64,000 nt of DNA from Candidatus Sulfopaludibacter sp. SbA3 (GTDB lineage Bacteria > Acidobacteriota > Terriglobia > Bryobacterales > Bryobacteraceae). The notes beneath the pieces were generated by a model that worked only from the letters and a program-made list of their open reading frames with translations, was not told the origin of the DNA and did not search any database. The stretch spans positions 1 to 64,000 of the forward strand of contig CAMDCN010000001.1 of assembly GCA_945890485.1 (NCBI GenBank), written 5' to 3'. The translations under genes were made by a program, and so were the position numbers. Shown here in pieces: positions 23,777-48,045 of the stretch; positions within the stretch are counted from its first letter, which is position 1, and each line of letters starts with the position of its first letter.

Positions 23777-23805
23777 TTGACGCCTACCCGATTTTCTGAT
23801 ATCGT
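23777..23805 (+). promoter_or_regulatory. candidate promoter of the TonB-dependent receptor gene
   Basis: TTGACG (23777-23782) and TATCGT (23800-23805) are separated by 17 bases, an acceptable sigma-70-type spacing, and lie 20 bases upstream of the receptor ATG, which also has GGAGG. The -10 match is weak. The call is from position and spacing only. Confidence 0.4.
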
Positions 23806-23824
23806 TCTCCAACTTGGAGGGACC

Positions 23825-26800
23825 ATGTCTAAACGTCTCATTTTATTAATACTTATTCTTTTTTCGACTTCGTTGGCCCAGACGCCGACCGGCGAAATCA
23901 GCGGAACCATTTCCGATTCCAGCGGCGCCGTCATCGCCGGTGCGAAAGTCACTGTCACGAACCCAGCAACGAACGTCCAACGGCTCGCGGAGTCGAACGA
24001 ACTCGGGCTCTACAGCGTCCCCGCGCTCCCGCCGGGCATCTACAACATTCGTATCGAAAAGGCCGGCTTTAGCGCGCAGTCGCGCACCAGTCTCGAACTC
24101 CAGACCGGTCAGGTCGCTAAGATCGACGTAGCGATGCAGGTCGGCAACGTCGCCGAGACAGTCGAAGTCACGGCCGCTCCTCCCGTCATTGAAAGCGAGA
24201 CGACCACCATCGGTACCGTTATCGAAAACAAGCGGATCGTCGAACTGCCGCTCAATGGCCGGAACTATCTCCAACTTGCTTCGCTGATTCCCGGCGCCAC
24301 AACAAACGGACCGGCCTCCTCCCAGGGGCAACAGCGGATGGGCGGCGCCCGTAACAGCTTCGCGCTCAACGTCGCGGGCCAACGCGTGCATTACAATCAC
24401 TACTCGTTAGATGGTATGGAGAACACTGACCCGAACTTCAACACCTACCTCTTCCTCCCGTCGATAGATGCTTTGCAGGAGTTCAAAGTGGAGTCTGGCC
24501 TGTTCCCGGCAGAGTATGGCCGCGCCATCGCCCAGGTGAATGCCACGACCAAGAGCGGCACGAACGAATTCCACGGCACCGTATTCGAGTTCCTCCGTAA
24601 CGCCAAGCTCGACGCCAAGAACTACTTTGACCGGAAGGATTTGCCCAAACCCGCCTTCAAGCGAAATCAGTTCGGCGGAACTGTTTCCGGCCGGATTCTC
24701 CGCGACAAGCTCTTCTTCATGGGGAACTACGAAGGTCTCCGCGAACGCCGCGCGCTCACCCAAACCGGGACGCTCCCGACAGCCGCGCTGCGCTCCGGCA
24801 ACATCGGCCGCGCCATTGTCGACCCGTTCTCCACGGGCCGGGTCCCTTTCCCCGGTAACGTCATTCCGGCTAGCCGGATCCAGGCTACCTCCACAAAGGT
24901 TCTGAACGACTTCTATCCTTTGCCTAACAACACAGGCGCCACGGGCCTCGCCAACAACTACCTTAACAATGAAGGACGCAATAGCGATGGCAACCAAGGC
25001 TCCGGACGCCTGGACTGGTCCCAATCGTCGAGTTCCAACTTCTTCTTCCGCTTCTCCCAGACCGTTGAACCGCAGTACATTCCCTCGGTGATCAATGGCC
25101 AGGGCAATGTGGCCTCCATCTACGCCCAACAAGGCGTCCTGGGCCACACCAAAGTCTTCGGAGCCAATAAAGTCAACGAGTTGAAGTTTGGCGTCAACTA
25201 CCTCAAGAGTTCCAATTCGCAGACCCGCGCCGGAACGCGCAACGTTGTGGAAGAGCTCGGAATCCCGGACATTGACCGCAGCAATCCGCTCTTCTGGGGC
25301 ATCCCCGTTTTCCAGATCTCCGGCTACTCGAGCGTCGGGGAATGCAATGATTGCCCGTTCGTCAACTGGAACACCACCGGCATGCTGACCGACAACTTCT
25401 CGTGGAATCGCGGCAAGCACCAAATCAAAATCGGCGGCGAAGTTCGTCGCGTCCGATACAACCAGATCGGAGCCGTCGTGCCGCGCGGGCGCTTCTCCTT
25501 CAACGGTCAATATTCCGGCGACCCCATGGCCGACTTCCTTCTCGGCACAATGTCCAACACCGAAGGCCAAGTGGGTGCTCCCATCGCCAATATGCGCAGC
25601 AACTACCTGGCCATGTACATTCAGGACACCTGGAAGATATCGCCCAAGCTGACGCTGAACTACGGCCTCCGCTGGGAGTACGAGTCCCCCTGGTACGACA
25701 AGCACGATGCCATCGTGAATATCGACTTCCGTTGGGATAATTCGATGGAACCCGTCTACGTCCGCGCCGGTACTGGTGATCCCTTCGAGGGGAATCCGCA
25801 GTTCCCGCTCCCCGCCGACGTGAAGTACACCCGCGATGGCCGCTTCGGCCGGGGCGCCTTCGCGCCAGATCGTAACGACATCGCGCCGCGCTTCGGCATC
25901 GCCTACTCGCTCGACTCGAAAACTGTCATCCGCACCGGCGGCGGACTGTACTACGTGCGCGACATTGGCAACGGTACTTTCGACGTTGTGCGCAACGCTC
26001 CCTTCACCATCCGCCGCAACGAACCCGGAAACCAGACCGTCCCGAACTTGAGCTGGCAGGTACCCTTTACGCAGAAGGGCGCCCCGACGTTCATCCTGAT
26101 CAATCAATACGGCGAGCGGACGTCCTACATCGGTCAATGGAGCTTCGGCGTCCAACGGGAATTGACGAAGGATATGTCGCTGGAAGTGACCTACATGGGT
26201 TCCACTGGCGTCCACCTGCGCCGTCTGCAGACCTACAACGCCGCGCCCCCTGGCGCCGGAAACCAAACCGCGCGCCGTCCCTTCCCGAAGTTCGGCGGCT
26301 TCCAGGTGATGAATGCTCCCGGACATTCGAGCTATCACGCACTCCAATCGAGGCTGCAGCATCGTTTCTCGAATGGATTCACGCTCCTTGGCTCCTACGC
26401 GTGGAGCAAGTCCATCGACAATGGCTCTGGTGTTCGCACCACGGATGGCGATCCGTTGACACCAATGGACGACTACAACTTGGGACGGGAGCGCGGCCGT
26501 TCGGCCTTCGATTTCCGTCACCGGTTTACCGCGTCGTTCCTCTATGAATTGCCGTTTGGAAAGGGCCGGGCCATGTCGATTGAGAATCCGGTAGCCAACT
26601 TCGTCCTCGGCGGCTGGCAGGTCGGCGGCATTTTCACCGTCCAGACCGGTTTCCCGCTGACGGCTTTCTGCGGCCCCGGCAATATCCAGAACGGCGGCAA
26701 TTACTGCGCGCCGGACGTTGTCCCCGGCCAGAGCCCGAACGAAATCAGCGACCGAACTGTGCAGCGCTTCTTCAACACCAGTGCGTTCGTGGACCGGCTG

Positions 26801-27079
26801 GGCCAGAATCCTGCCGCTATCACGGATTTCCGCTTTGGCAATTCCGGGCGCAATACCATCACGGGCCCTGGTATCACGTCGCTCGACGCCTCGCTGACGA
26901 AGATCTTCCGGATCTCCGAGCGCCAACGGCTCGAATTCCGCAGCGAGTTCTTTAACCTGCCGAATCACCCGATCTTTGCCCCGCCCGGAACCACGCTCCG
27001 GACGGTCAACTATGGGGTAATCGGCGCAACGAAGGTAGATTCTCGACAACTTCAGTTCGCCTTGAAGTATCAGTTTTAG
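23825..27079 (+). CDS. TonB-dependent receptor with carboxypeptidase-regulatory-like N domain
   Basis: A 1084-residue outer-membrane protein. ATG 23825 has GGAGG 4 bases upstream and starts a signal peptide ending S-L-A-Q. Residues about 22-110 are a carboxypeptidase-regulatory-like beta sandwich (G-E-I-S-G-T-I-S-D-S-S-G-A-V-I-A-G-A-K-V-T-V). A plug region follows with I-V-E-L-P-L-N-G-R-N-Y-L-Q-L-A and Y-G-R-A-I-A-Q-V-N-A-T-T-K-S-G-T-N-E-F-H-G-T, then a long beta barrel ending in aromatic L-K-Y-Q-F. This is the large Oar-like receptor class expanded in Acidobacteria. The ligand is unknown; a glycan is a guess. The photolyase GTG follows 2 bases after the stop. Confidence 0.9.
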   Translation: MSKRLILLILILFSTSLAQTPTGEISGTISDSSGAVIAGAKVTVTNPATNVQRLAESNELGLYSVPALPPGIYNIRIEKAGFSAQSRTSLELQTGQVAKIDVAMQVGNVAETVEVTAAPPVIESETTTIGTVIENKRIVELPLNGRNYLQLASLIPGATTNGPASSQGQQRMGGARNSFALNVAGQRVHYNHYSLDGMENTDPNFNTYLFLPSIDALQEFKVESGLFPAEYGRAIAQVNATTKSGTNEFHGTVFEFLRNAKLDAKNYFDRKDLPKPAFKRNQFGGTVSGRILRDKLFFMGNYEGLRERRALTQTGTLPTAALRSGNIGRAIVDPFSTGRVPFPGNVIPASRIQATSTKVLNDFYPLPNNTGATGLANNYLNNEGRNSDGNQGSGRLDWSQSSSSNFFFRFSQTVEPQYIPSVINGQGNVASIYAQQGVLGHTKVFGANKVNELKFGVNYLKSSNSQTRAGTRNVVEELGIPDIDRSNPLFWGIPVFQISGYSSVGECNDCPFVNWNTTGMLTDNFSWNRGKHQIKIGGEVRRVRYNQIGAVVPRGRFSFNGQYSGDPMADFLLGTMSNTEGQVGAPIANMRSNYLAMYIQDTWKISPKLTLNYGLRWEYESPWYDKHDAIVNIDFRWDNSMEPVYVRAGTGDPFEGNPQFPLPADVKYTRDGRFGRGAFAPDRNDIAPRFGIAYSLDSKTVIRTGGGLYYVRDIGNGTFDVVRNAPFTIRRNEPGNQTVPNLSWQVPFTQKGAPTFILINQYGERTSYIGQWSFGVQRELTKDMSLEVTYMGSTGVHLRRLQTYNAAPPGAGNQTARRPFPKFGGFQVMNAPGHSSYHALQSRLQHRFSNGFTLLGSYAWSKSIDNGSGVRTTDGDPLTPMDDYNLGRERGRSAFDFRHRFTASFLYELPFGKGRAMSIENPVANFVLGGWQVGGIFTVQTGFPLTAFCGPGNIQNGGNYCAPDVVPGQSPNEISDRTVQRFFNTSAFVDRLGQNPAAITDFRFGNSGRNTITGPGITSLDASLTKIFRISERQRLEFRSEFFNLPNHPIFAPPGTTLRTVNYGVIGATKVDSRQLQFALKYQF

Positions 27080-32961: not shown

Positions 32962-33392
32962 TGCCTACTCAAAATCTTGAGAACCATACGCAGCGCGTAC
33001 CTGGATTCCTCGCGCTCGCCCTTGTACTATTTATCACTTTGATTGGCTGTGCGGTGAATCTGTACCTTTCGCTGGGAGATCACCAGCGGGTATATAGCGC
33101 TTCGCTCCTGTTCGTGCTGACGGGGTCCGTGTTCGTCACGGCATTTTTCGCCAGAGTTTTCGCCCTAAAGGCGCAGGATCGGGCGATTCGTGCCGAGGAG
33201 AACCTGCGGCATTTCGTTCTCACGGGAAAGCTGCTCGATCCGCGTCTGACCGTGATGCAAATTGTCGGATTGCGTTTTGCTTCCGATGCGGAGTTCCCGA
33301 CGCTCGCGCAGCAGGCTGCGGAGAAGGGACTTTCGCAGAAGGACATTAAAACCGCGGTGAAGAACTGGCGCGCCGATTTCGACCGCGTCTAG
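32961..33392 (+). CDS. DUF6526-like membrane protein
   Basis: A 143-residue protein with two adjacent membrane helices in the N-terminal half (F-L-A-L-A-L-V-L-F-I-T-L-I-G and Y-S-A-S-L-L-F-V-L-T-G-S-V-F-V-T-A-F-F) and a soluble C-terminal half containing A-L-K-A-Q-D-R-A-I-R-A-E-E-N-L-R and L-T-V-M-Q-I-V-G-L-R-F-A-S-D. This fits DUF6526. The ATG overlaps the nrdB stop, so it is probably translated with the reductase, but no link to nucleotide metabolism is known. Its stop shares CTAG with the convergent cytochrome gene. Confidence 0.75.
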   Translation: MPTQNLENHTQRVPGFLALALVLFITLIGCAVNLYLSLGDHQRVYSASLLFVLTGSVFVTAFFARVFALKAQDRAIRAEENLRHFVLTGKLLDPRLTVMQIVGLRFASDAEFPTLAQQAAEKGLSQKDIKTAVKNWRADFDRV

Positions 33393-34333
33393 CGGATCCA
33401 GTGGTCAGTGAAGATGCTGTGCCCGGCCTCCGGGGTGGGCGCTTTGGGCATGTGGCAGCTTTGGCAGTCCGGTCCGCCATGGGTTCGTTTCGTAGAGTGG
33501 CAGGTGCGGCAGGGCTGGTTCGGGTCCAGCTTGGCGGTGGTGGGATGGGGATTGTGGCAGGTGCCGCACCAGAGCTTGTCACCGCTGGCGATTTGGCATT
33601 TGGACATCGCGAGGCGTTCGAAGTGCCCGGTAACTTTCAAGTCTGACTGCTTCTGTTGAGTCGCGGTCTGGTAGGTGACGAGTTCGTCGAGGAATGCGCC
33701 AGGTTGGTAGGAGTAGAAGCTGCGGCCGGGCTTGTCCGTTCGCGCCAAGCCGAGAAGATGGCATTGGCGGCAGGTATCGTTGCGAGCAGCGGCGGGCAGT
33801 TTGACGGGGTTGACGGGTCGCTTCGCCGGGTCCTGGGCGTGGGCGCGGGTATCGCCATGGCAGCGATCGCAGGTGATGCCATTTTCGCGGAAGGGCGGGT
33901 CGGCGTATTGGTTGATGGTGCCGTAGATCATCCGCACGGACGAAGCATGGCACCAGAGGCAGTCGCGTCCGACGGGGCGGGTCCAATCGGAGTGGTCGTC
34001 GGCCTCGTAGCCGGGGGACATGCCCCAGCCGCGCATTTGGTAGCGCGTGATGGGCGCTTGGAAGAGTTTGTCGCCCCGGCGGAACAGATAGCTGCGGCCA
34101 TGGGCGCCGGAGCCGAGAAAGTATTCCAGCTTCTGGGTCGCGGTTTGGAGGGGCGTGCGGACCTTAACCTGGTTGGGCGGCTCGATGGAGTACGTCGTCC
34201 AGGAGGGAGTGTGGCGGTAAGCTCCCGCGGGCAGGGAGGTGACGGGACCGCTGGAACGTGCCATGGGCGAATGTTCGTAGGCGGTGACGATAGCCGGGTG
34301 GCAGGCGGCGCAAGCGAAGGCAAGTAGAATCAT
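33389..34333 (-). CDS. seven-haem secreted c-type cytochrome
   Basis: A 314-residue protein with seven CXXCH motifs: C-A-A-C-H (residues 8-12), C-L-W-C-H, C-D-R-C-H, C-R-Q-C-H, C-G-T-C-H, C-R-T-C-H and C-Q-S-C-H. The first haem site lies inside or directly after a very short export signal (M-I-L-L-A-F-A). The M-S-K-C-Q-I-A-S-G-D-K-L-W-C-G-T-C-H segment carries an extra lone cysteine typical of this cytochrome family. The fold recalls cytochrome c554/NrfA-like electron carriers. It is the last gene of a coupled operon with a TPR protein, CRTAC1 protein and TonB-dependent receptor. The start overlaps the TPR stop (ATGA). Confidence 0.85.
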   Translation of the reverse strand: MILLAFACAACHPAIVTAYEHSPMARSSGPVTSLPAGAYRHTPSWTTYSIEPPNQVKVRTPLQTATQKLEYFLGSGAHGRSYLFRRGDKLFQAPITRYQMRGWGMSPGYEADDHSDWTRPVGRDCLWCHASSVRMIYGTINQYADPPFRENGITCDRCHGDTRAHAQDPAKRPVNPVKLPAAARNDTCRQCHLLGLARTDKPGRSFYSYQPGAFLDELVTYQTATQQKQSDLKVTGHFERLAMSKCQIASGDKLWCGTCHNPHPTTAKLDPNQPCRTCHSTKRTHGGPDCQSCHMPKAPTPEAGHSIFTDHWIR

Positions 34334-35058
34334 CGGACCAGCCGGGGCGGGATGCGTTCGAAGGCCTGCCGGTGGAACCTCGCCTTGGCTTCGTTTTGTA
34401 GTTTCTGGTAGGCGCGAGCGAGCAGGAAGTGGAGCTGGCGTTCGGTCTGGGGCAGCCCCGGCAGCGTCAGCGCCTTTTCGGCGTCGGCGACCGACTCAGC
34501 AAAGTGGGCGGCTTCGAGATGGAGGCGAGCCCGTTCGTAGAACGCTTCGCGGTACTGCGGATCGCGGCGCAAGGCTTCTTTGATCTGCGTATGGGCTTCG
34601 GGGAACCGTTGCAGGGTGAACAGCAGACGGGCGAAGGCGAGGGGCGCTTCGGGGCTGGAGTTGTGCCGGATGGCTTCGGGATAGAGCTTTAGCGCGGACT
34701 CGATATCGGCGAGGCCTTCGTGTGTCAGGGCGAGGTAGAGCAGCGTCGGGCCGTCGTTGGACCGCAGTTGGCGGGCTGTTAGCAGGGCGGTGAGGGCGGG
34801 GGTGAAGTCGTTATCGAGATAGAGGCAGAATCCGAGCAGGAAGTGGGCGGCGGGGGAGCGGGGCGCAAGTTTTGCGGCGCGCGTTAGATAGGTCCGGGCT
34901 TGCTGGGCCTGATCGAGGGCCAGCTGAATGCGACCGGCGAGGAGCAGGGTATCGAGGTTCGCCGGTTCCTGCCGCAGCATTGGCTCGAGGGCCGTCCACG
35001 CCTCCGCGGGGCGCTGTTGACGGAGGAGTTGCTGGACCGAGACGAGATCAGAAGGCAT
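34330..35058 (-). CDS. tetratricopeptide-repeat protein
   Basis: A 242-residue all-helical protein made of about six TPR units, with typical positions (A-L-x-L-x-x-x-x-A-x-A; Y-L-T-R-A-A-K-L-A-P-R-S-P-A-A-H-F-L-L-G; A-L-R-R-D-P-Q-Y-R-E-A-F-Y-E-R-A-R-L). No signal peptide is evident from ATG 35058. It is likely an assembly or scaffolding factor for its neighbours. It overlaps the CRTAC1 gene by 11 bases and the cytochrome gene by 4 bases. Confidence 0.85.
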   Translation of the reverse strand: MPSDLVSVQQLLRQQRPAEAWTALEPMLRQEPANLDTLLLAGRIQLALDQAQQARTYLTRAAKLAPRSPAAHFLLGFCLYLDNDFTPALTALLTARQLRSNDGPTLLYLALTHEGLADIESALKLYPEAIRHNSSPEAPLAFARLLFTLQRFPEAHTQIKEALRRDPQYREAFYERARLHLEAAHFAESVADAEKALTLPGLPQTERQLHFLLARAYQKLQNEAKARFHRQAFERIPPRLVR

Positions 35059-36538
35059 GATACCGGTCTGCCTTCAGTTTAGTCGCGCGCCACTTCGATT
35101 GGATTTCCACCCAGTCGGCTTCGCCGTGTTTTCCCAGGCCGAGCACGACGCGCGGATCGTGCGAGCTGAGATAGCTGCCGTGGGAGTTGATCCGCTTTTG
35201 GCGGACGACGCCGCCGGCGGACCAGCGGACGATGGCGCCCGGGACGAGTGCGGGATGGGAGACGCCGAGCCAATGGTTCGAGGGATGCGGCGTGCCGAGG
35301 TAGACGACCGGCGCTTCGCCGTTATTGGCGATGACGAAATCCAGATGCCCGTCGTTGTTGAGATCCCCGAGGGCGAGGCCGCGAGCGGGCAGGTCCGCGC
35401 CGAGGCGGGAGACGGTAAACTTGCCTTGGTTGTTCTCGAAGTAGAGCGTGGGCTCTTTATGGGTGAGCGTTTGCGAGAGGGTCTCGATGCGGTCGTCCGG
35501 ATGGCCGTTGACGATCAGAAGGTCTTCGTCGCCGTCGTGGTCGCGGTCGAAGAACTTGAGGCCCCAGCCGGAGTACATCTGCGTCGCGGGGCCAATGCCC
35601 GTCGGGCCGGCTTGATCCGAGAAGTTGAGTCCGTCCAGGTTGCGATAGATGGAGAAGCGCTCCCGGTTGAAGTTAGCGACGAAGAGGTCTTCGCGGCCGT
35701 CGCCATCGTAGTCGGCGGCGTCGACACCCATGCCGGAACGGGGGTTGCCGTCGGCGGAGTAGGCGACGCCGGAGTCGAGGCCGATCTCTTCGAACTTGAG
35801 TTGGCCACGGTTAAGGAAGAGGAAGTTAGCGACCGAGTCGTTGGCTACGAACAGGTCGAGAAGGCCGTCGTTGTTGACGTCGGTGGCGACGGCGCCGAAT
35901 ACTTTGCCGAGGGCGGCGCCGATGCCGGACGACGCCGAGACGTCTTCAAAGCGGCCTTGGCCACGGTTGCGATAGAGCCGCGACGGATGGGCGGGATAGC
36001 TGAGCGGGTGGCAGTAGTGGAAGACGCCGTTGTACTTGCAGGCCGGTTCCGTGACCGGGTCGTAGGCGGCGAAGTGGCCGAGGAAGAGATCGAACAGGCC
36101 GTCGTTATCCGCGTCGAAAAAGACGCTGACGGTCCAGAGGCCGGGCTCGGCGATGGGCGCCGCGGAGAACTTTCCGTTGCCGAGATTGCGATACAGAATC
36201 GGCGTACCCCATCCCGTGACGAGGAGATCGGGGTGCCCGTCGATGTCGTAGTCGGCGGTGGTGACGCCGAGGCCGAAGAGGTCCCGGCGCAGGCCAGCCT
36301 CGACGGTGACGTCCGTGAATTTGAGATTGCCGTCGTTCCGGAAGAGGGCGGTGGGGAAGGCGATGTCCATGCGGCCATCGCCGTTGTAATCGAAGATGGC
36401 AACGCCGGGCCCCATGTTTTCGGGCAGACGGCGGCGGTCCGTCAGGCCGTTATCGTGGCGATAGGAGAGCGTGGGGCCCGAAAGAAAAAGCGCCGCCCCC
36501 GTGAGGAGAGCGGCGCTGAACAGAAGCGGCCAGAACAT
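35048..36538 (-). CDS. CRTAC1 family protein (FG-GAP/VCBS propeller + ASPIC/UnbV domain)
   Basis: A 496-residue exported protein. An N-terminal hydrophobic anchor (L-L-F-S-A-A-L-L-T-G-A-A-L-F-L) precedes repeated integrin-like FG-GAP/VCBS blades with calcium-binding loops: D-Y-N-G-D-G-R-M-D-I-A-F, D-Y-D-I-D-G-H-P-D-L-L-V, D-A-D-N-D-G-L-F-D-L-F-L, D-V-N-N-D-G-L-L-D-L-F-V, D-Y-D-G-D-G-R-E-D-L-F-V. The C-terminal ASPIC/UnbV domain has N-H-W-L-G-V-S-H-P and V-R-W-S-A-G-G-V-V-R-Q-K-R-I-N. The function is unknown in bacteria; propeller and calcium sites suggest binding. It starts 2 bases after the receptor stop. Confidence 0.9.
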   Translation of the reverse strand: MFWPLLFSAALLTGAALFLSGPTLSYRHDNGLTDRRRLPENMGPGVAIFDYNGDGRMDIAFPTALFRNDGNLKFTDVTVEAGLRRDLFGLGVTTADYDIDGHPDLLVTGWGTPILYRNLGNGKFSAAPIAEPGLWTVSVFFDADNDGLFDLFLGHFAAYDPVTEPACKYNGVFHYCHPLSYPAHPSRLYRNRGQGRFEDVSASSGIGAALGKVFGAVATDVNNDGLLDLFVANDSVANFLFLNRGQLKFEEIGLDSGVAYSADGNPRSGMGVDAADYDGDGREDLFVANFNRERFSIYRNLDGLNFSDQAGPTGIGPATQMYSGWGLKFFDRDHDGDEDLLIVNGHPDDRIETLSQTLTHKEPTLYFENNQGKFTVSRLGADLPARGLALGDLNNDGHLDFVIANNGEAPVVYLGTPHPSNHWLGVSHPALVPGAIVRWSAGGVVRQKRINSHGSYLSSHDPRVVLGLGKHGEADWVEIQSKWRATKLKADRYHAF

Positions 36539-36540
36539 GG

Positions 36541-39500
36541 TTAGAACTGGAAGCGGGCCACGACCTGCCCGTTGCGCGGCGGGCTGAAGACACTCGCCGG
36601 GTTGATGCGGCCGAAGCCGGAGACGAGGTTGCCGTTGGCATCGCGATTGGTGGTGGCCAAGGGATTGCCGGCGTCGGGATTGTTGAGGAACGTGCGATTG
36701 AACACGTTGAAGAACTCGCCACGGAAGCTGATGACGTAGCGTTCCTTGATCCGGAACATGCGTCCGAAGGAGAGTTGTTCATCGGGCCGGCGGGCGTAAC
36801 GGTAGTCGTCATAGTAGGCCGCAGCGGTGCCCCATTGGCCCTGGGCAGGATTGGACCAGGCGGCCGGGTTGAGCGTCAACTGTTTGAACGGATCGATGCT
36901 CTGGCGTTCGTTCAGGTTTTCGATGTACAGGGGTACGCCCTCGACACGATTCATCCGGGTGCCCCGGAACAGCAGGCTGGCGAGCGCGTTGGTCGCTCCG
37001 GGAGCGGCGATGGGGAAACCGCTCGAATACCGCATGATGCCGCCGAGCGTCCAACTGCTGAGAAAGGCTCTGGTGGCCCAGTTCTTGTTCCAGCGCGGGG
37101 AGTCGTAGTTGAAGCCAACGACGAGCACCTGCGGCTGATCATTGAGCGAGAAGCTCTTCTGATTGCGCCGGTTGTACACGTCGTTGGTGGGGATGGTGCC
37201 GCCGCTTTGGGTCTCTACGTTGGTCAGGTTCTTGGACCAGGTGTAAGCCAAGGTGCCCGTGAGACCTTTCGAGTAGCGTTTGGTTACCTTGATCTGGAGC
37301 GAATCGTACCAACTGTTGCCCAGAGGCGCCCAGAGGCTGCCGAGATTGCCGAACTGCGGATACGGCCGCAGCGCCTGCGCCAGGGTTGCCGAGTTCGGGA
37401 AGGTGGCGTAGGGCTTCTGGAACCCACGGGCGATTACTGCAGAATTGTCGATGCGTGCCGTCAGCAAAGTGCGGTCGGCCGCCGAGTTGACATCGAGACC
37501 AAAGGAGCGAATCCGCTCCGGCGTCAGGCCATTGTAGTCGTTGAGGCCATCGGCGCGGAACCAAGCGCCACGGTTGCCTACATAGGCGGCTTCGACGACC
37601 ATGCTGGAGCCGAGTTCCCGCTGCAGGCTCAGATTCCAATTCGCCATCCGGGGAGGACGGCCGCTATTGGGGTCGACGAGTGCGGGTGGGGAATTGATCT
37701 GGCCAGGGCTCGGACGAATTCCGGCGTCGTAGCTGGCGGCGGTCAACTCGTTCACGTTGTAGGAGAGACCGTTCCGAAGGGTGACACCGGGTTCGGCAAA
37801 GGCCGGATTCGAGAAGGCAACGGTGTTGAAGCCCATGCCGAGCGAGTTGCCGCCACCGATGTAGGCGAAGTTGGCGACCTGCGCGTAGCTGACGGCGAAG
37901 CCGGCGCGGGCTACCCATTTGTCTGCGAACTGGTAAGCCATGCCGAGGCGGGGGCCGAAGGCGTAGGGATAGGTGTTGCTGATGGAGCAGTTGCAACGGC
38001 CGTTGCCGTAGCCGGCGTAGCGGGTAGCTCCGGGCAGATTGCCAGCGGCTGGGTTGCGGCCTTCCGGATCGAACATTGAGGTCCGTTGGTGCAGTTCATC
38101 CGAGGCGGGCTGATAGTCATAGCGGATGCCGTAATCGAGCGTGAGCTTGCGGGTCAGCCGCCACGTATCCTGCGCAAAGAAGCCAAGCGTAGGACGGCGA
38201 TACTGGGGATCCTGAGGATTTGAGACGCTGGCCGAGTTGGCGAAGCCCAGCAGGAAGCTGGCGTAGTTGAACCCGACACTCCCGCCGGGCAGGGCGACAC
38301 CCTGGAGCGCCGGCATGGAGGTTTGCGCCGTTGCGAAACCAAATACTCCAGCAACTCCTCCGGAGGAGCGGTTGGTGAAGTTGTCCATCTTCCACTCGCC
38401 GCCGAACTTGAAGGAGTGCGTTCCCTTGACCCACGTCGTTGACGCGACAGCGGTTGGCTTGTCCTGGTAATAGAGGGTGCGGTTCGTCGGTCCGATGTTG
38501 AAACCGAGGCCACCCTGAGCGCCGCCAAGATCGGTCATGCGCGGGAATCCAGTGCCGAAGCCGCCACGGAGACCGAGCAGGCCAGCCGAGTCGAAGCTGG
38601 TGATCACTTCCGGCGAGGCATCTGGATTGACGTAACGCTGGTAGCCGACGCCGAGATGCAGAAGCAAGGTGGGCCGCAGGGAGGTGTCAAAGTTGACGCG
38701 CGTCGTGTGGGACCGGATGATCTGGTCGCGGCGTGCGCTGATGGGATCAGGCAGGCCTTCCTGGCCGTTGTCCTTGTCCGTGCGTTGGAGGGAGTAGTAG
38801 GCGCTGATGCGGGAAGAGCCGGTGAAGTTGTGGTCAACCTTGATGCTGGGGATGTCCTGAATCTTGCGGAAGTTGTACCGGCGCTCAAAGTTGTTGATGT
38901 TTCCGGCGCGGCTGGCGGTCGGGATCAGGGCTTGGATTTTCGCGGAAACGGGGTCGATTAACGATGCGGGGATTACATTGTTCGGAAAGACATCGCGATA
39001 GATGCGGCCGTCGGGCCCGGTACGGCTGGTGCGCGGGTCGTAGATGCTGTTCTCTAGGATGGGCCGGCCGAGGCCGTCGGTGCCTAGGTTGCGGCCCGTG
39101 AGTGCGCCGCTGAAATCGCCATTGCGATAGGCGTCGGTCGGAACAGTGCCGTAGCCGTCGAATTTGCCTTCTTTATTCAGATACTTTTCGTAGTTGAAGA
39201 AAAAGAAGGTTCGGTTCTTGCCGTTGTAGAGCTTCGGGATCAGGATGGGTCCACCGAGATTGAAGCCGTAGTTGTTGCGGCGAGTCCGCGGCCGGACCAA
39301 TTCGTTGTTGCCGTTGTTGGTGAACGGGATGCCCGCGTTGAAAACCTCGTTGACGAAGTAGTCGTAGACGCCGCCGTGGAATTCGTTGGTGCCCGAGCGG
39401 GAGGTGAAGTTGAACAATCCGCCGCCAACCTGGCCGAACTCGGCCGAGTAGTTGGAGGTTTGGAGGGTGAACTCTTCGACGGCATCGACGGATGGCTGCG

Positions 39501-40113
39501 ACTCATCGGAGACGCGGCCGTCGAGCGAACTGGTCGAGTCCTGGCCTTCGAAGATGATCTTGAAGGTGCCGGCGGGAGCGCCGTTGACCTTGATGTTGTT
39601 CCAGCCGTTGATGGAAGCGCCGGGGGTGAGCTGGGTGAAGCTGAGCGGGTTGCGGATGGCTCCCTGGCCGATCGCGAAGTTGAGCGGCAACTGGTTTAAC
39701 TGTTCGCGGTTGATGGTCGTCGAGGCGGCTGCGCTATCGGTGTTGAGCAGGGCGGCCTCCGAGGAGACGTTGATCGATTCCGTGGCGGAGCCGATCTGCA
39801 GGACGATATCTAAAGACGCTGTCTGGGCGACTTGGACGCGAACGTCGCGCTGGACTACTTTGCGAAATCCTGTGACTTCGACGGTCACTTCATAGAGGCC
39901 CGCGGTCAGATAAGGGGCAGAGAAATTGCCCGTTCCGGTGGTCGCGATTTCCTGGCGAATGCCAGTGCCTTGATTGACGATGGTGACGGTGGCATTGGGG
40001 ATCAGGGCGCCGCCGGGATCGGCAACGGTTCCTGAGATAGTGCCGCGATCGGACTGGGCGAAAGCGGTGGCAGCAAACAACAACGAGGTGAAAGCGAGAA
40101 AAACGAGTTTCAT
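36541..40113 (-). CDS. TonB-dependent receptor with carboxypeptidase-regulatory-like N domain
   Basis: A 1190-residue outer-membrane receptor. ATG 40113 begins the signal peptide M-K-L-V-F-L-A-F-T-S-L-L-F-A-A-T-A-F-A-Q; the upstream TTG (40125) is less likely. The N domain is T-I-S-G-T-V-A-D-P-G-G-A-L-I-P-N-A-T-V-T-I, followed by a plug (F-G-Q-V-G-G-G-L-F-N-F-T-S-R-S-G-T-N-E-F-H-G-G) and a long barrel ending V-V-A-R-F-Q-F. It leads a four-gene operon whose other members are all envelope or redox proteins. The ligand is unknown. Confidence 0.9.
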   Translation of the reverse strand: MKLVFLAFTSLLFAATAFAQSDRGTISGTVADPGGALIPNATVTIVNQGTGIRQEIATTGTGNFSAPYLTAGLYEVTVEVTGFRKVVQRDVRVQVAQTASLDIVLQIGSATESINVSSEAALLNTDSAAASTTINREQLNQLPLNFAIGQGAIRNPLSFTQLTPGASINGWNNIKVNGAPAGTFKIIFEGQDSTSSLDGRVSDESQPSVDAVEEFTLQTSNYSAEFGQVGGGLFNFTSRSGTNEFHGGVYDYFVNEVFNAGIPFTNNGNNELVRPRTRRNNYGFNLGGPILIPKLYNGKNRTFFFFNYEKYLNKEGKFDGYGTVPTDAYRNGDFSGALTGRNLGTDGLGRPILENSIYDPRTSRTGPDGRIYRDVFPNNVIPASLIDPVSAKIQALIPTASRAGNINNFERRYNFRKIQDIPSIKVDHNFTGSSRISAYYSLQRTDKDNGQEGLPDPISARRDQIIRSHTTRVNFDTSLRPTLLLHLGVGYQRYVNPDASPEVITSFDSAGLLGLRGGFGTGFPRMTDLGGAQGGLGFNIGPTNRTLYYQDKPTAVASTTWVKGTHSFKFGGEWKMDNFTNRSSGGVAGVFGFATAQTSMPALQGVALPGGSVGFNYASFLLGFANSASVSNPQDPQYRRPTLGFFAQDTWRLTRKLTLDYGIRYDYQPASDELHQRTSMFDPEGRNPAAGNLPGATRYAGYGNGRCNCSISNTYPYAFGPRLGMAYQFADKWVARAGFAVSYAQVANFAYIGGGNSLGMGFNTVAFSNPAFAEPGVTLRNGLSYNVNELTAASYDAGIRPSPGQINSPPALVDPNSGRPPRMANWNLSLQRELGSSMVVEAAYVGNRGAWFRADGLNDYNGLTPERIRSFGLDVNSAADRTLLTARIDNSAVIARGFQKPYATFPNSATLAQALRPYPQFGNLGSLWAPLGNSWYDSLQIKVTKRYSKGLTGTLAYTWSKNLTNVETQSGGTIPTNDVYNRRNQKSFSLNDQPQVLVVGFNYDSPRWNKNWATRAFLSSWTLGGIMRYSSGFPIAAPGATNALASLLFRGTRMNRVEGVPLYIENLNERQSIDPFKQLTLNPAAWSNPAQGQWGTAAAYYDDYRYARRPDEQLSFGRMFRIKERYVISFRGEFFNVFNRTFLNNPDAGNPLATTNRDANGNLVSGFGRINPASVFSPPRNGQVVARFQF

Positions 40114-40160
40114 TAACGAGACCAAACTAGTGCGTTTAGACTATCACAGCCGCTTCGCCA

Positions 40161-40166
40161 TATAAT
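40161..40166 (+). promoter_or_regulatory. perfect -10 hexamer just before the dehydrogenase gamma-like gene
   Basis: TATAAT lies 12 bases before ATG 40179. If it is the -10 element the mRNA would begin about 6 bases before the start, leaving no room for a Shine-Dalgarno, and none is seen. No good -35 box is present at standard spacing (TTTAGA is 20 bases away). Confidence 0.5.
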
Positions 40167-40178
40167 GTGGGCGTGTCA

Positions 40179-40703
40179 ATGACAACTCGGCGATCCATGT
40201 TACAGGCCTCCGCGACCCTGGCGATTGCGGCCCCGGCGATGCAGGCGCAGGACCATGCTCAGCATGGCTTGACGCAAATAGAGAAAGCAGCTCCGCAAGT
40301 GGCGCGCTTCTTCAGCAAGCAGGAGATGAACCTGCTGGCCCAGTTGGTGGAACAGATCATTCCGCGTTCGGATACGCCGGGGGCGGCCGACGCGAACGTG
40401 CATTACTTTGTAGACTTCCAGGCGCATACGAACCGGAAGCTCGGTTCGCAACTGAAGAAGGATTTGTCGTGGGTAAGAAAGCAGGGATTTGCGAAGGCGG
40501 AATCCGGTAAACAGGTGGAGCTGTTAACGGCCTGGAGCAAGACGAAAGGCACCGAGCCTTATCGCATTTTTAAACAGTTCAAGGACCTGACCATCGACGG
40601 CTACTACGGTTCGAAAGAGGGGCTGACGCAGGAGCTGGGTTGGAACGCCAACACGTTTCTGCGGGAGTTCAAGGGCTGCACCCATCCGGAGCACGGAGCT
40701 TAA
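40179..40703 (+). CDS. gluconate 2-dehydrogenase subunit 3-like (gamma/hitch-hiker) protein
   Basis: A 174-residue protein with a twin-arginine signal T-T-R-R-S-M-L-Q-A-S-A-T-L-A-I-A-A-P-A. The body has the subunit-3 motif L-A-Q-L-V-E-Q-I-I-P-R-S-D-T-P-G-A-A-D-A and G-Y-Y-G-S-K-E-G-L-T-Q-E-L-G-W. These small subunits carry the folded catalytic flavoprotein across the membrane on their own Tat signal. The GMC oxidoreductase follows 3 bases downstream and has no signal of its own, which fits. ATG 40179 is preferred to GTG 40167 for the signal structure. Confidence 0.85.
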   Translation: MTTRRSMLQASATLAIAAPAMQAQDHAQHGLTQIEKAAPQVARFFSKQEMNLLAQLVEQIIPRSDTPGAADANVHYFVDFQAHTNRKLGSQLKKDLSWVRKQGFAKAESGKQVELLTAWSKTKGTEPYRIFKQFKDLTIDGYYGSKEGLTQELGWNANTFLREFKGCTHPEHGA

Positions 40704-40706
40704 ACC

Positions 40707-42353
40707 ATGTACGTACAGAACGCACCCGAAGTCCATGATGTGATTGTGATCGGCAGCGGCGCGGCGGGCGGCATGGCGGCGTGGAACCTGACGCGGCAGG
40801 GCGTGAACGTCACATTGCTCGATGCGGGCACCCGCTTCCGGCGGGAAGACTTTTGGACGCATGTGAAGCCGTGGCAGTGGCGCGAGCGGGTGGAGCGGGG
40901 GATGGCCCCGCCGCAGATTCGGCTCGACAACGCCGAGCAGCCATATTCGTGGAAGGATCCGAACTACTTTGAGTTGATCCGGGTGTGGGGCCGCGGCGGC
41001 AAGACAAACATCTGGGGCCGGGTGGCGCTGCGGTATTCGGACGTCGATTTCGAGGGTCCAGCCAAAGACGGCTGGGAGATCCCGTGGCCGATTCGGTATA
41101 AGGACATTGCGCCGTACTACGACCGAGTCGAGCAGGAGATTGGGGTGTGCGGCGGCGACGACGATCAGGACTCGCTGCCGGGCTCTAAGTTCCATTTGCC
41201 GCCTCCGGCTTTGCGCTGCGGCGAGAAGTTCTTGCAGGCGGCTGCGCGGCGGCAGGGCATCAGCGTCGTCAATCAGCGGCGGGCCGTCGTGACGAAGCCG
41301 CATAACGGCCATAGTCCGTGCCACTTTTGCGGCGCGTGTGGGCGCGGCTGCGATGTGTCGGCGTTCTTCAATTCGACCGACTACCTGCTGGATCCGGCGG
41401 AGAAGACCGGGAAGCTGAAGATCATCGACAACGCCGTGGTGGCGCGGATTCTGCTGGGTGATAACGGATTGGCGACCGGGGTGCAATATTTCGACCGGTT
41501 CACGAAGCAGGAGCGCGTGATCCGTGGCAAGCGCATTGTGCTTGGCGCGTCGTGCGTCGACTCAACGCGGATTCTGCTGAACTCGAAGTCGGCGAAGTAT
41601 CCGACCGGCATTGGGAACTCGTCGGGTGTGATCGGCAACTACTTGTGTGAACAGGTGCGGTTCCATATGTATGGATTCGTTCCGGACCTGATGGGGACGA
41701 AGGCGCTGAACGACGACGGCATCGGCGGCGAGCATATTTACATGCCGCGGTTTAATCATCGGGACGGCAAGAAGCGCGATTATCTGCGGGGATTCGGCTC
41801 GCAGTTCTGGGGCATTGGTGCGCAGCCGGGGGCGGCCTACGCGAAGCAGTTGGATGGATTCGGCCTCGATTTTAAGAAGGCCGTGAAGCGGCGGTATCCG
41901 GCTTTGGTGGCAATGCATCCCTACGGCGAGACGCTGCCGCGGAAGGAGAACCGGATCACGGTGGAAGGTACGCCGGTGGACAAGTATGGCGTGCCAACTC
42001 TTCGCATTGAATACAACATTGGCGATAACGAGAAGAAGATGATCGCTGAGATGTATGACATGGCGGAGGGCGTGATGCGGGCGGCGAAGGCCGAGATTCT
42101 GCCATTTGAGCGTGGTTGGCTGGATAGCTTCGGCAGCGCGATCCACGAACATGGCACGTGCCGGATGGGCGAGGATCCGCGGCGGAGCGCGTTGAACGGC
42201 TTCAACCAGATGCACGACGTGAAGAATCTGTTCGTCGTGGATGGCTCCGCGTTCTCGACCGCTTCGGAGAAGAATCCGACGCTGACCATCCTGGCGCTGG
42301 CGTGGCGATCGACGGACTACATGGCCGAAGAGATGCGCAAAGGCAATCTCTAG
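40707..42353 (+). CDS. GMC-family sugar dehydrogenase, catalytic subunit
   Basis: A 548-residue flavoprotein. FAD-binding [15 protein letters not shown] is at residue 14. Midway is a cysteine cluster C205-x2-C208-x2-C211-x3-C215 ([14 protein letters not shown]), at about the position where FAD-glucose dehydrogenases hold a [3Fe-4S] cluster. The C-terminal GMC block has the catalytic histidine in H-E-H-G-T-C-R-M-G and [12 protein letters not shown]. It likely oxidises a sugar or sugar alcohol in the periplasm after Tat co-export with subunit 3. No membrane cytochrome subunit is adjacent. Its stop overlaps the convergent DUF1080 gene (CTAG). Confidence 0.9.
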
Positions 42354-44438: not shown

Positions 44439-45748
44439 TGCGGCGACGTGGATTCTTGGGCTTGGCGGGTGCAGCGCCCGCGATGGGCGGTAGGCTCGTC
44501 GACTCGTGCGGCTGCGCGATGATGCCGCAGGCGGCGGCCGCTCCGGTTGGCGCCGATGCGTTCGCGAAAGTGGGTTCGAAGCTGCGGATCACGAACGTCA
44601 AGGTGTTCGGGGTATCGCTGACACCACAGTCCGATCGGCCGTATGTCTTTGTGAAGATCGAGACCAACCAGGGACTGATCGGCTGGGGCGAAGGGACTCT
44701 CGAAGGCAAGGCAGCCGCCGTGATGTCCTGCGTCGAAGACTTCAAGGAGTTGTTGATTGGCGCGGACCCGATGCAGGTGGAACACCACTGGCAGTCGATG
44801 TACGTCCATAGTTTTTACCGGGCGGGGCCGGTGATGGGTTCGGCGATCAGCGGAATTGATCAGGCGCTGTGGGATATTCGCGGCAAGGCGCTGAACATGC
44901 CGGTTTATAAGCTCCTCGGCGGGCCGGTCGATACGCGAGGGGTGCGCGGGTATTATCATTTGCGCGCGCGGAACAAGGAGGATTTGCCGCGTCTGCGGGA
45001 AGAGGCGCGGAAGCAGGGGATCACTTGTTTTAAGAGCGGTATTCCGAGCTACTACGAATGGATTGAGACGAACAAGAAGATTTCGGCCGCCGTGCAGGCG
45101 ATGGCGGACCTTCGCGAGGGTCTGGGGCCGGACATCGACATCGGTATCGACTTCCATGCGAAGACTTCGCCGAGCGTAGCTTCAATTCTGGTAAAGGAAG
45201 TGGATCCGTTAAACCTTTTGTTTATTGAGGAGCCGTGTCCGCCGGAGAACGTGAAGGCGATGCAGCGAATCGCCAAGCGGTCGACGACCCCGATTGCGAC
45301 CGGCGAACGGTTGGTGGCGCACTACGGTTGCCGCGAGATCATTGAGCTCGGCGTGGCGGACATTATCCAAACCGATATCAACCACGTGGGTGGCATCACC
45401 GCGTTGTGGAAGGTTGGCGCGATGGCGGAGATCTCCGGAATCTCGATGGCGCCCCACGCATGCGAAGGTCCGATTGGCGGGCTAGCGACGGTGCACGTGG
45501 ATGCGGCGATGCCGAACTTCCTGGTGCAGGAGATCTGCAGCGGCGTCGAGGTCGGCCCGAATGAGAAAGTTTGGGCCGAGTGGCTGGGCTTCCCGGCGAT
45601 GCGGATGGTGAACGGCCGGTTCCCGCTTTCCGATAAGCCGGGGTTGGGATTTGATCTGACCGAAGATGCGCTGAAGAAGTACCCGTTTGGCGGAACGAAG
45701 CCAATGGCGCGAGTTTTTCATGAGGATGGATCGGTAGCTGAATGGTAG
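44438..45748 (+). CDS. enolase-superfamily acid-sugar dehydratase (galactonate-dehydratase-like)
   Basis: A 436-residue protein with a Tat signal (M-R-R-R-G-F-L-G-L-A-G-A-A-P-A). The dehydratase barrel has D-x-H in G-I-D-F-H-A-K, the second metal ligand in F-I-E-E-P-C, the third in A-T-G-E-R-L and the catalytic histidine in A-P-H-A-C-E-G. These match galactonate dehydratase and related enzymes that dehydrate aldonic acids. The substrate is not determinable by eye. ATG 44438 is used; GTG 44435 is an alternative. Tat export is unusual for this enzyme class. Its end overlaps the start of the DUF1592 gene by 7 bases. Confidence 0.8.
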   Translation: MRRRGFLGLAGAAPAMGGRLVDSCGCAMMPQAAAAPVGADAFAKVGSKLRITNVKVFGVSLTPQSDRPYVFVKIETNQGLIGWGEGTLEGKAAAVMSCVEDFKELLIGADPMQVEHHWQSMYVHSFYRAGPVMGSAISGIDQALWDIRGKALNMPVYKLLGGPVDTRGVRGYYHLRARNKEDLPRLREEARKQGITCFKSGIPSYYEWIETNKKISAAVQAMADLREGLGPDIDIGIDFHAKTSPSVASILVKEVDPLNLLFIEEPCPPENVKAMQRIAKRSTTPIATGERLVAHYGCREIIELGVADIIQTDINHVGGITALWKVGAMAEISGISMAPHACEGPIGGLATVHVDAAMPNFLVQEICSGVEVGPNEKVWAEWLGFPAMRMVNGRFPLSDKPGLGFDLTEDALKKYPFGGTKPMARVFHEDGSVAEW

Positions 45749-48045
45749 TGCTTAGAATTGGGTTCGTTTCGTTGTTTGCCGTGTTGGCGTATGGGGATGA
45801 CTTCACCGAGAAGATCCGTCCCGTACTGAATGAGAACTGTGCGAAGTGCCACAATCCGGCGAATCCGCGGAATCGGCTGAACTTTCTGAAGGCCGGGGCG
45901 GCGACCGATGTCGAAACGCAACGGTCGCTCTGGCGGAACGTGGCAACGCAGTTGCGGAACCGGACGATGCCGCCGGGCGCGGCTAAGATGGCCGAGGCCG
46001 ACCGGATGGACGTGGCCAATTGGATTGAGGCGCGGCTACGGAGTACCGGTTGTACAAGCAGCGAATATGCCGGGTTCGTCGCTTCGCGTCGGCTGAACCG
46101 GCGGGAGTGGAAGAACTCGATTCGGGACCTGTTCGGACTCGATGTGATCGCTCCGGACCTGTTCCCCGCCGATGAATCGGGCGGTGCGGGTTTCGATACC
46201 AATGGCGAGACGCTGTATGTTCCGCCGATGATGCTCGAACGATATCTCGAAGCGGCGACCACGGTGCTCGACCGGATCGTGGTGACGCCGCCCTACAACA
46301 AGGTGGTGCTTTCGCACGAGTTGAACCCGACAACGGCCCGCCCAACGGGGATCAAGCCGAGCCGGTTTGTGGATCCGGGAACTGAGTTGACGACGAACGT
46401 TTCCGTGTCGGCGGAGGGGCCCTATACGATTCGTGTTTCTGTCGAACGGCCTCCGGTGACACCGTTCACCTTGAAGGTGAAAGTGGATGGCGCGGAGGTA
46501 GGGACGCTGAACTACGCGCGCGACTCCGGCGGTGGAGCGACGGCGCGGTTGGCGACGGCGACGTTGTCGCGGGGGGCGCATACGATTTCCGTAGTGACCG
46601 GGACGGAGCGTGTCGAGTTCTATAGCGTGACGGTGGACCAGCGGCCGACGCCGATGGCGGCCGAGAAGCGGGCGTTGCACTATCAGTTGCTCGGCCTGGA
46701 AGTGGGTCAGTCGCCGGTGGACCCGCGGGCGGCGGCGCGGCGTATTTTGAAGCAAGTTTTGCCGAAGGCGTTCCGGCGACCCGTGCAGGATGCGGAGATG
46801 GAACAGTTCCTCGCCCTGTATGATCGGGGCGCCAAACGGGGTGACCCGTTTGAAGAGAACGTGAAGTTGGCACTGAAGGCGGTGCTGGTTTCGCCCCGGT
46901 TCCTTTTCAAAGTGGAAGAGCCGGACGCGCGGCCCGGAATCCAACCGGTCGGCCAGTATGAGATGGCATCACGGTTATCGTACTTTCTCTGGTCGACCAT
47001 GCCGGATGCGGAGCTATTGCAGTTGGCCGGGGCGGGGAAGTTGCAGGATCCGGCGGTACTGAAGGCGCAGGTGGACCGGATGATCGACGATCCGCGGTCG
47101 CGGGTCTTCGCCAATGGGTTTATGGGCCAGTGGCTGGGGACGCAGGAGGTAGGCGGACGGTCGATGCCTTTGCTGACCGAGTTGCAGCATTTCTATACGC
47201 CGGAAGCGGCGGCGGATCTGCGCGAACAGCCCGAGCTGATGTATCACTACCTGCTGACGGCGAACCGCAGTTTGCTCGAATTGCTCACGGGAAACTATAC
47301 GTTCCTCACCGAGCGACTGGTGAAGTACTACGAACTGGAAGGGAAAGTGAAATTGGGTCCAGGGCCGGGGTTTCACAAGGTCGATTGGCCGGATACGAAG
47401 CGGGCCGGGGTGCTGGGCTTGGCTTCGGTGCTGGGCATGACCTCGCACTACAAAGAAGCGAGCCCGGTGCTGCGGGGAGCTTGGGTATTGGAAACGTTGC
47501 TCGGTACGCCGGTGCCCCCGCCGCCGGCCGATGTTCCGCCGCTCGATGCGGTGAAGGCGTCGAACAAGAAGCTGACCATGCGGGAGATGTTGGCGAAGCA
47601 CCGGGAGAACGTCTCCTGCGCCGCCTGCCATAACCTGATGGACCCGATTGGCCTGGGCCTGGAGAACTTCGACTGGATGGGCCGCTGGCGGGATAAGGAA
47701 GCCGATGGCCGGCCGGTGGACGCCTCCGGGGCGCTGCCGAGCGGCGAGAAGTTCAACGGTCCGGAGGAGTTGCGCGGAGTGCTGCTGCAGCGCAAAGAGG
47801 AGTTTCTGCGGCAGTTGGTAGGGAAGACGTTGGGCTATGCGCTGGGCCGCGGTTTGCAGGATGGCGACCAATGCACGATTCAGCGGCTGATGGATAACCT
47901 GGCGAAGGACGGCTATTCCGCACGAACCTTAATCCGGGATATTGTATTGAGTACACCGTTCCGTAACTCACAAAGTGACGCGGTGGTGAGCGAGAGCCAC
48001 GGTCCGGCAAAGAAGGCTCCGCGCCGGTTATTGGGAACCAAGTAG
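45742..48045 (+). CDS. secreted DUF1592-family haem protein (pair 3)
   Basis: A 767-residue exported protein. The signal ends near L-A-Y-G-D-D, then a haem head with C-A-K-C-H (C33, C36, H37) and T-M-P-P-G distal motif. R-R-L-N-R-R-E-W-K-N-S-I-R-D-L-F-G begins DUF1587; a carbohydrate-binding-like beta module covers about residues 190-300; A-S-R-L-S-Y-F-L-W-S-T-M-P-D is DUF1592; E-A-S-P-V-L-R-G-A-W-V-L-E is DUF1588. A second haem site, C-A-A-C-H (C626), is in N-L-M-D-P-I-G-L-G-L-E-N-F. It is cotranscribed with two enolase-superfamily genes, unlike the other two copies. Confidence 0.9.
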   Translation: MVVLRIGFVSLFAVLAYGDDFTEKIRPVLNENCAKCHNPANPRNRLNFLKAGAATDVETQRSLWRNVATQLRNRTMPPGAAKMAEADRMDVANWIEARLRSTGCTSSEYAGFVASRRLNRREWKNSIRDLFGLDVIAPDLFPADESGGAGFDTNGETLYVPPMMLERYLEAATTVLDRIVVTPPYNKVVLSHELNPTTARPTGIKPSRFVDPGTELTTNVSVSAEGPYTIRVSVERPPVTPFTLKVKVDGAEVGTLNYARDSGGGATARLATATLSRGAHTISVVTGTERVEFYSVTVDQRPTPMAAEKRALHYQLLGLEVGQSPVDPRAAARRILKQVLPKAFRRPVQDAEMEQFLALYDRGAKRGDPFEENVKLALKAVLVSPRFLFKVEEPDARPGIQPVGQYEMASRLSYFLWSTMPDAELLQLAGAGKLQDPAVLKAQVDRMIDDPRSRVFANGFMGQWLGTQEVGGRSMPLLTELQHFYTPEAAADLREQPELMYHYLLTANRSLLELLTGNYTFLTERLVKYYELEGKVKLGPGPGFHKVDWPDTKRAGVLGLASVLGMTSHYKEASPVLRGAWVLETLLGTPVPPPPADVPPLDAVKASNKKLTMREMLAKHRENVSCAACHNLMDPIGLGLENFDWMGRWRDKEADGRPVDASGALPSGEKFNGPEELRGVLLQRKEEFLRQLVGKTLGYALGRGLQDGDQCTIQRLMDNLAKDGYSARTLIRDIVLSTPFRNSQSDAVVSESHGPAKKAPRRLLGTK

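Follow-up and report, generated by a model that had tools for sequence, protein, structure and literature searches.

The window analysed here is a stretch of 64,000 nucleotides at the start of contig CAMDCN010000001.1 of Candidatus Sulfopaludibacter sp. SbA3 (assembly GCA_945890485.1, genome size 7.1 Mb). It carries a run of four minus-strand genes encoding an outer-membrane receptor, a propeller protein, a tetratricopeptide repeat (TPR) protein and a seven-haem cytochrome, a grouping frequent among soil bacteria of one phylum that suggests an undescribed machine joining surface transport to a redox reaction. The four genes, each delimited by its open reading frame (ORF) and assigned with Pfam, are listed below.

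36541..40113, minus strand: Oar-like TonB-dependent receptor, 1190 amino acids, start ATG
35048..36538, minus strand: CRTAC1-type propeller, 496 amino acids, with a hydrophobic N-terminus
34330..35058, minus strand: TPR protein, 242 amino acids, without a signal peptide
33389..34333, minus strand: heptahaem c-type cytochrome, 314 amino acids, a relative of OcwA

The receptor and propeller genes are separated by 2 bases, the propeller and TPR genes overlap by 11 bases and the TPR and cytochrome genes by 4 bases. This arrangement, described in a first-pass annotation of the same DNA, was borne out by the ORFs and the sequence, and Pfam together with motif positions upheld its assignment of the products to an outer-membrane receptor, an ASPIC/UnbV propeller, a TPR protein and a cytochrome with seven CXXCH sites. 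An alternative receptor start, TTG at 40125, is likewise open. None of the NCBIfam models scored above its cut-off for any of the four proteins, and a plasmid origin was rejected, as 72,556 plasmid records gave no near match. In the nearest relative, locus L062 of the same genus, all four genes stand in identical order. Protein identity to L062 was 89.2% for the cytochrome, 86.4% for the TPR protein, 92.5% for the propeller and 94.5% for the receptor, with ratios of nonsynonymous to synonymous substitution (dN/dS) of 0.063, 0.091, 0.064 and 0.051, respectively, and dS of 0.62 to 0.92. All four genes are maintained under purifying selection, and since L062 keeps the gene order with low dN/dS in all four, the run is more than chance.

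The receptor consists of a Sec-like N-terminus (judged by eye), a CarboxypepD_reg domain (PF13620, E 6.2e-19, 68.6 bits) and an OMP_b-brl_4 barrel (PF25183, E 1.8e-162), while PF00593 reached merely 18.3 bits, below its cut-off of 27. No Pfam plug match was found at E up to 0.01, and residues 111-241, where a plug is expected, are without assignment. The propeller matched FG-GAP_3 in six stretches (143.2 bits), contains seven DxDxDG-type loops and ends in a partial UnbV_ASPIC match (49 of 68 positions; 27.1 bits against a cut-off of 23.4). The cytochrome matched Cytochrome_C7 / Paired_CXXCH, with CXXCH motifs at residues 8, 125, 155, 188, 256, 275 and 290. The window's genome contains at least 65 receptors of the OMP_b-brl_4 type (121 candidates, 65 scored) and 15 ASPIC matches; the receptor family was also matched in 3 of 14 control genomes, and ASPIC in none of the 14.

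A TPR tail was present on 115 of 130 family cytochrome ORFs (model E <1e-80, redundant loci included). The window cytochrome represents the minority form without a C-terminal TPR domain, and a separate TPR gene adjoins it. Furthermore, six single ORFs fuse TPR and propeller (loci L049, L088, L155, L160, L162 and L175), both parts being confirmed by Pfam in L088. TPR units are therefore joined in one chain to the cytochrome and to the propeller somewhere among these families. A hydrophobic N-terminus was called for 88/93 cytochromes, 41/50 propellers, 69/78 receptors and 30/36 stand-alone TPR proteins, using a crude hydrophobicity rule rather than a trained predictor, with several of the failures due to wrong starts. 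In the window, the seven residues before the first CXXCH of the cytochrome are hydrophobic and too short for this rule. An in-frame stop six codons upstream of the TPR ATG excludes an upstream start, and export of the window TPR protein is not supported since a leader is absent.

Linkage of the families in relatives and within the genome

A profile of 34 family sequences, including that of the window, yielded 395 cytochrome relatives in the genome collection, of which the best 80 were kept. The record titles of all 80 loci name acidobacterial groups, among which we take Sulfopaludibacter to be counted. Partner genes were labelled with models built for this analysis, a stand-alone TPR protein being one of <360 amino acids, and genes in relatives were called by a fixed rule (labelled ORFs taken first and the longest next), which leaves some starts wrong. 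Of the best 80 loci, 54 had a receptor no more than 5 kb from the cytochrome, 33 a propeller and 18 a stand-alone TPR gene. The corresponding values for the 39 loci with >6 kb on both sides were 32, 19 and 10, with the receptor as the only partner in 13, propeller plus receptor in 12 and other mixtures with TPR in 5. Receptor density per kb was 0.279 within 1 kb of the cytochrome, 0.022 at 5-7.5 kb and 0.019 at 7.5-10 kb, and propeller density was 0.116, 0.011 and 0.005 over the same intervals, such that both first-kb densities are >10 times those 5-10 kb away. Gene orders and strands differ among relatives, and the set therefore seems not to have been inherited as a single block.

Another 20 loci, sampled beyond the order, comprised 9 loci of another family of the same class (f4) and 11 sharing the phylum only. 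Within f4 a receptor was found at 6 of the 9 loci (L203, L204, L205, L207, L210, L221) and a propeller at 5 (L203, L204, L205, L208, L210). As a separate observation, L205:4290-14966 carries receptor, TPR, cytochrome-TPR, long TPR and propeller genes on one strand, a compact version of the set. Within the order, 200 genomes were sampled and 146 contained the family cytochrome at E up to 1e-10; the limit for the phylum search was 1e-20, and the two are not comparable as rates.

After de-duplication of 130 loci to 91, neighbours of at least 150 amino acids were compared up to 8 kb from each; they included no widespread shared gene that would betray a substrate. Only the receptor (63 loci) and propeller/TPR (45) were widely recurrent, and the next clusters were DUF1501 and PSCyt2/PSD1 (10 each, both by Pfam) and a sulfatase-like group (8, by eye). 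PSCyt2/PSD1 and DUF1501 genes occur near the heptahaem cytochrome in relatives, e.g. at L071:15611-19096, and the window encodes planctomycete-type cytochrome proteins with PSCyt/PSD domains at 45742-48045 (+).

A receptor tree was built from 85 of 120 receptors after those of <950 amino acids and then near-identical ones were dropped; it included 20 background receptors hand-picked from the window's own genome, away from cytochrome and ASPIC places. The window's receptor fell in a clade of 37 (support 1.0), of which 35 have a family cytochrome no more than 5 kb away, a proportion inflated because the cytochrome drove receptor sampling. A propeller is also near 18 of these 35, and the other two members are background receptors. 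A nested clade of 14 (support 1.0) contained 13 receptors with both cytochrome and propeller nearby; outside the clade of 37, 16 of 48 receptors were near a cytochrome. The 'near cytochrome' label required 12 changes on the tree (mean 26.7 and minimum 20 in 1000 shuffles) and the 'near propeller' label 17 (mean 25.4, minimum 18). Clustering of the partner labels is beyond what cytochrome-driven sampling alone explains, and the cytochrome is linked to one receptor subclade. At 23777-27079 (+) the window encodes a second Oar-like receptor, which falls elsewhere in the tree; neither a cytochrome nor a propeller was labelled near it at the distances used for the tree.

Within the window's own genome, 12 cytochrome-family ORFs were present on the fetched stretches, six with a receptor that overlaps them or lies at most 103 bp away; in the window the receptor is 2.2 kb from the cytochrome, in the same run. 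Seven of 17 propeller ORFs had a receptor within 1.6 kb. At L043, L049, L050 and L052, receptor, propeller and TPR genes occur together, and the nearest 6 kb on either side of the propeller contain no cytochrome. Receptor, propeller and TPR protein seem to make up a broader kit, and the form with the cytochrome to be one variety of it. A stretch of about 16 kb in the same genome (L045, C24:64000-83000) holds three family cytochromes, a propeller, a receptor and two-CXXCH proteins, one of them shown as PSCyt-type.

These data bear on the explanation that the genes are neighbours without a common machine, with expanded paralogous envelope families shuffled in big genomes and a cytochrome engaged in general periplasmic redox. 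The families are indeed expanded here (at least 65 receptors, 15 ASPIC and 12 cytochrome-family matches), partners are often missing at loci, and an excerpt of the Solibacter genome paper describes numerous paralogs that are old and diverged, with ASPIC/UnbV and TonB-receptor groups among those analysed (PMC3174227). However, densities that exceed those at 5-10 kb more than tenfold, receptor labels that follow the tree, fusions among partners and recurrence of the set in another family of the class all speak against shuffling, which we regard as improbable. Linkage well above local background, varying gene orders, the cytochrome-tied receptor subclade and the fusions instead favour the view, already put forward in the first-pass annotation, that the genes form a functional set.

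The cytochrome and comparison with known systems

The cytochrome is related to OcwA/MccA/c554, and its closest solved relatives are extracellular reductases. OcwA of Thermincola potens (PDB 6I5B), a member of the NrfA/c554/MccA superfamily, is its closest known kin. The window protein shows the globular multihaem fold of the NrfA/c554 superfamily, with seven haems compared to nine in OcwA. The C-terminal three-helix bundle of OcwA is absent: only 20 residues follow the last CXXCH, and the predicted structure has no C-terminal helices, residues 296-314 having a predicted local distance difference test score (pLDDT) <50. The family further differs from OcwA in that its cytochromes usually carry a TPR tail and often stand beside a TonB-dependent receptor. 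A weak match to the selenoprotein cytochrome MccSep (E 0.0023; 0.12) was rejected, and the single search made for papers naming MccSep found none. One residue deserves separate listing.

33596..33598, minus strand: codon of Cys246, the sole cysteine of the cytochrome outside CXXCH

Cysteine occupies position 246 in all 35 aligned sequences. The profile aligns S244-x-C246 with Ser-His-His of OcwA, and thereby Cys246 with the second His of the OcwA His-His pair, with nearby gaps on both sides that make a local shift possible. We equate this His-His pair with the haem-2 pocket. In the same profile alignment, Met24 is found in 33 of 35 sequences where OcwA has a His. In a relative with 55% identity (L063:4282-5205) the last haem motif is CxxFH, and one thioether bond would therefore be missing.

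Given such kin, the cytochrome might serve extracellular respiration as a terminal reductase for Fe(III), humics or shuttles, with receptor, propeller and TPR protein only placing or anchoring it and nothing imported. This appears unlikely, as it leaves unexplained the association between the cytochrome and one subclade of an energised receptor, and soluble substrates are also served by the fold, a point emphasised in the OcwA paper. Furthermore, the cluster encodes no barrel protein other than the receptor, and hence no visible porin-cytochrome conduit. Porin-cytochrome conduits (MtrCAB, and the verrucomicrobial porin-multihaem clusters described in an excerpt of PMC5615132) resemble the cluster in that a barrel gene adjoins a multihaem cytochrome gene; they differ in that here the barrel is of the TonB-receptor type, the cytochrome is OcwA-like, and propeller and TPR protein are present. 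No MtrB-like porin was found in the cluster, where the sole barrel protein matches OMP_b-brl_4 (Pfam).

Oar-type receptors are mostly regarded as importers. This counts against the idea that the receptor secretes the partner proteins of the cluster, in the manner of Oar and PopC in Myxococcus xanthus, as do the lack of any protease-like partner in the cluster by Pfam and the exceptional status of a leaderless TPR protein, given that 30 of the 36 stand-alone ones have a hydrophobic N-terminus by the rule above. In favour of export, the window TPR protein is leaderless yet under purifying selection. In the part of PMC6434023 consulted, M. xanthus Oar is needed to secrete the protease PopC, itself without a signal peptide, and has a similar architecture of CarboxypepD_reg plus TonB-dependent-type barrel. 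The likeness to Oar lies in this domain and the large barrel; the partners here are a propeller, a TPR protein and a cytochrome, and the Pfam plug match is missing. On balance, export of the partners is distinctly improbable.

A functional analogy exists with the SusCD systems of Bacteroidota, where a TonB-dependent barrel likewise stands beside surface-type proteins; we know of no SusCD counterpart of the propeller and cytochrome. No match to the SusD family was found at E up to 0.01 among the seven proteins scanned, which come from the cluster and its surroundings. One SusD-family structure has a TPR region, according to an excerpt of PMC2954216. The propeller resembles CRTAC1 / ASPIC-UnbV proteins in its FG-GAP propeller and C-terminal ASPIC/UnbV domain, and differs from them in its place in a run with receptor and cytochrome and, in relatives, in its occasional fusion to TPR.

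A hairpin within the run and a divergent gene pair

36489..36517, minus strand: terminator-like hairpin, 12 pairs followed by a T run, in the first propeller codons

This hairpin is a possible attenuator between the receptor gene and the rest of the run. It is identical in L062, and L064 folds a different hairpin near the corresponding junction. The identity to L062 proves nothing, because comparable identical runs are unexceptional; conservation was rejected as evidence since the 41-base identity is only the third-longest such run in 6.7 kb. Terminator-like matches numbered 3 against a shuffle mean of 6.5, i.e. below shuffled sequence. On the opposite strand, a divergent pair at 40137-42353 (+) encodes a gluconate 2-dehydrogenase subunit 3 type protein and a GMC oxidoreductase (Pfam); about 54 bp separate its beginning from the receptor start, and a site at 40137-40166 resembles a promoter. 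The GMC oxidoreductase was rejected as a cluster partner, not being seen adjoining the receptor in L062.

A proposed envelope module coupling redox chemistry to transport

The reading that we favour, with a probability of roughly 0.45, is that the genes form a dedicated acidobacterial envelope module coupling a redox step to transport by an Oar-like receptor. The outer-membrane Oar-like TonB-dependent receptor would be partnered by a secreted propeller of the calcium type, whose task would be to capture or hold a ligand, and the OcwA-related heptahaem cytochrome would oxidise or reduce either this ligand or a metal or electron shuttle attached to the ligand. TPR units, either separate or fused to cytochrome or propeller, would hold the parts together. 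The redox step would make the ligand transportable, or would use it, and the receptor would move the ligand through the outer membrane with TonB energy, in a direction that we infer. The proteins of the cluster presumably touch one another, and the cytochrome probably sits either outside the outer membrane or on its periplasmic face. Haem 2 may be the reaction site, with Cys246 beside it, and the ligand could be a metal complex, a humic-type or a sulfur compound. A stricter form is doubtful, namely redox-coupled TonB-dependent transport in which an open-haem enzyme with an invariant cysteine converts the propeller-held ligand on a dedicated receptor, electron transfer and transport being one process. 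The first-pass annotation had proposed a link between uptake or binding of a ligand and electron transfer across the envelope; this is plausible, the closest solved relatives of the cytochrome being extracellular reductases, and better founded than it was, although passage of electrons through the envelope is unproven, the sole barrel being the receptor.

Several observations weigh against the proposed module. The best 80 of 395 loci over-represent near relatives and count some genomes repeatedly. Among the 11 phylum-only loci, a receptor was found at two (L202, 2.9 kb off, and L213, 5.9 kb) and a propeller at three (L214, L216, L218); taken together with the f4 counts, linkage is strong within the order, extends to the class and is weak further out. 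Conserved co-occurrence, proposed earlier as the check on the set, gave a mixed result: the cytochrome accompanies a receptor at 32 of the 39 fully flanked loci, but receptor, propeller and stand-alone TPR are all within 5 kb at only 5 of the 39, none of the three is present at 4, and a family cytochrome lies within 1 kb on the same strand of only 2 of the 17 propeller ORFs in the window's genome. For ten of those 17 the nearest 1.6 kb contain no receptor, and as the genome has at least 65 receptors but 12 cytochromes, most receptors cannot pair with one of the latter. Protein distances were compared for 38 loci at which propeller and receptor are both near full-length, reduced to 23 by removing near-identical cytochromes. 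Correlations were 0.74 for cytochrome-propeller, 0.60 for cytochrome-receptor and 0.61 for propeller-receptor, none of 2000 permutations reaching such values, and those of TPR (n=13) were 0.94 with propeller, 0.84 with cytochrome and 0.61 with receptor; such correlations are also expected from common descent, which contributes. Finally, in the window the cytochrome has an unusually short leader and the TPR protein, like its counterparts in L062 and L063, has none, which is the main point against a module of four exported proteins in this lineage.

Searches of open-licence papers gave no title or abstract opening that describes this gene combination, and no sign of redox-coupled TonB-dependent transport, and the excerpted Solibacter genome paper names the ASPIC/UnbV and TonB-receptor paralog groups separately (PMC3174227). 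A module of this kind would join TonB-dependent transport and multihaem redox chemistry, two separately studied fields. Acidobacteria are widespread in soil, and for the at least 65 Oar-like receptors of this genome the cytochrome-tied subclade provides a specific, testable entry.
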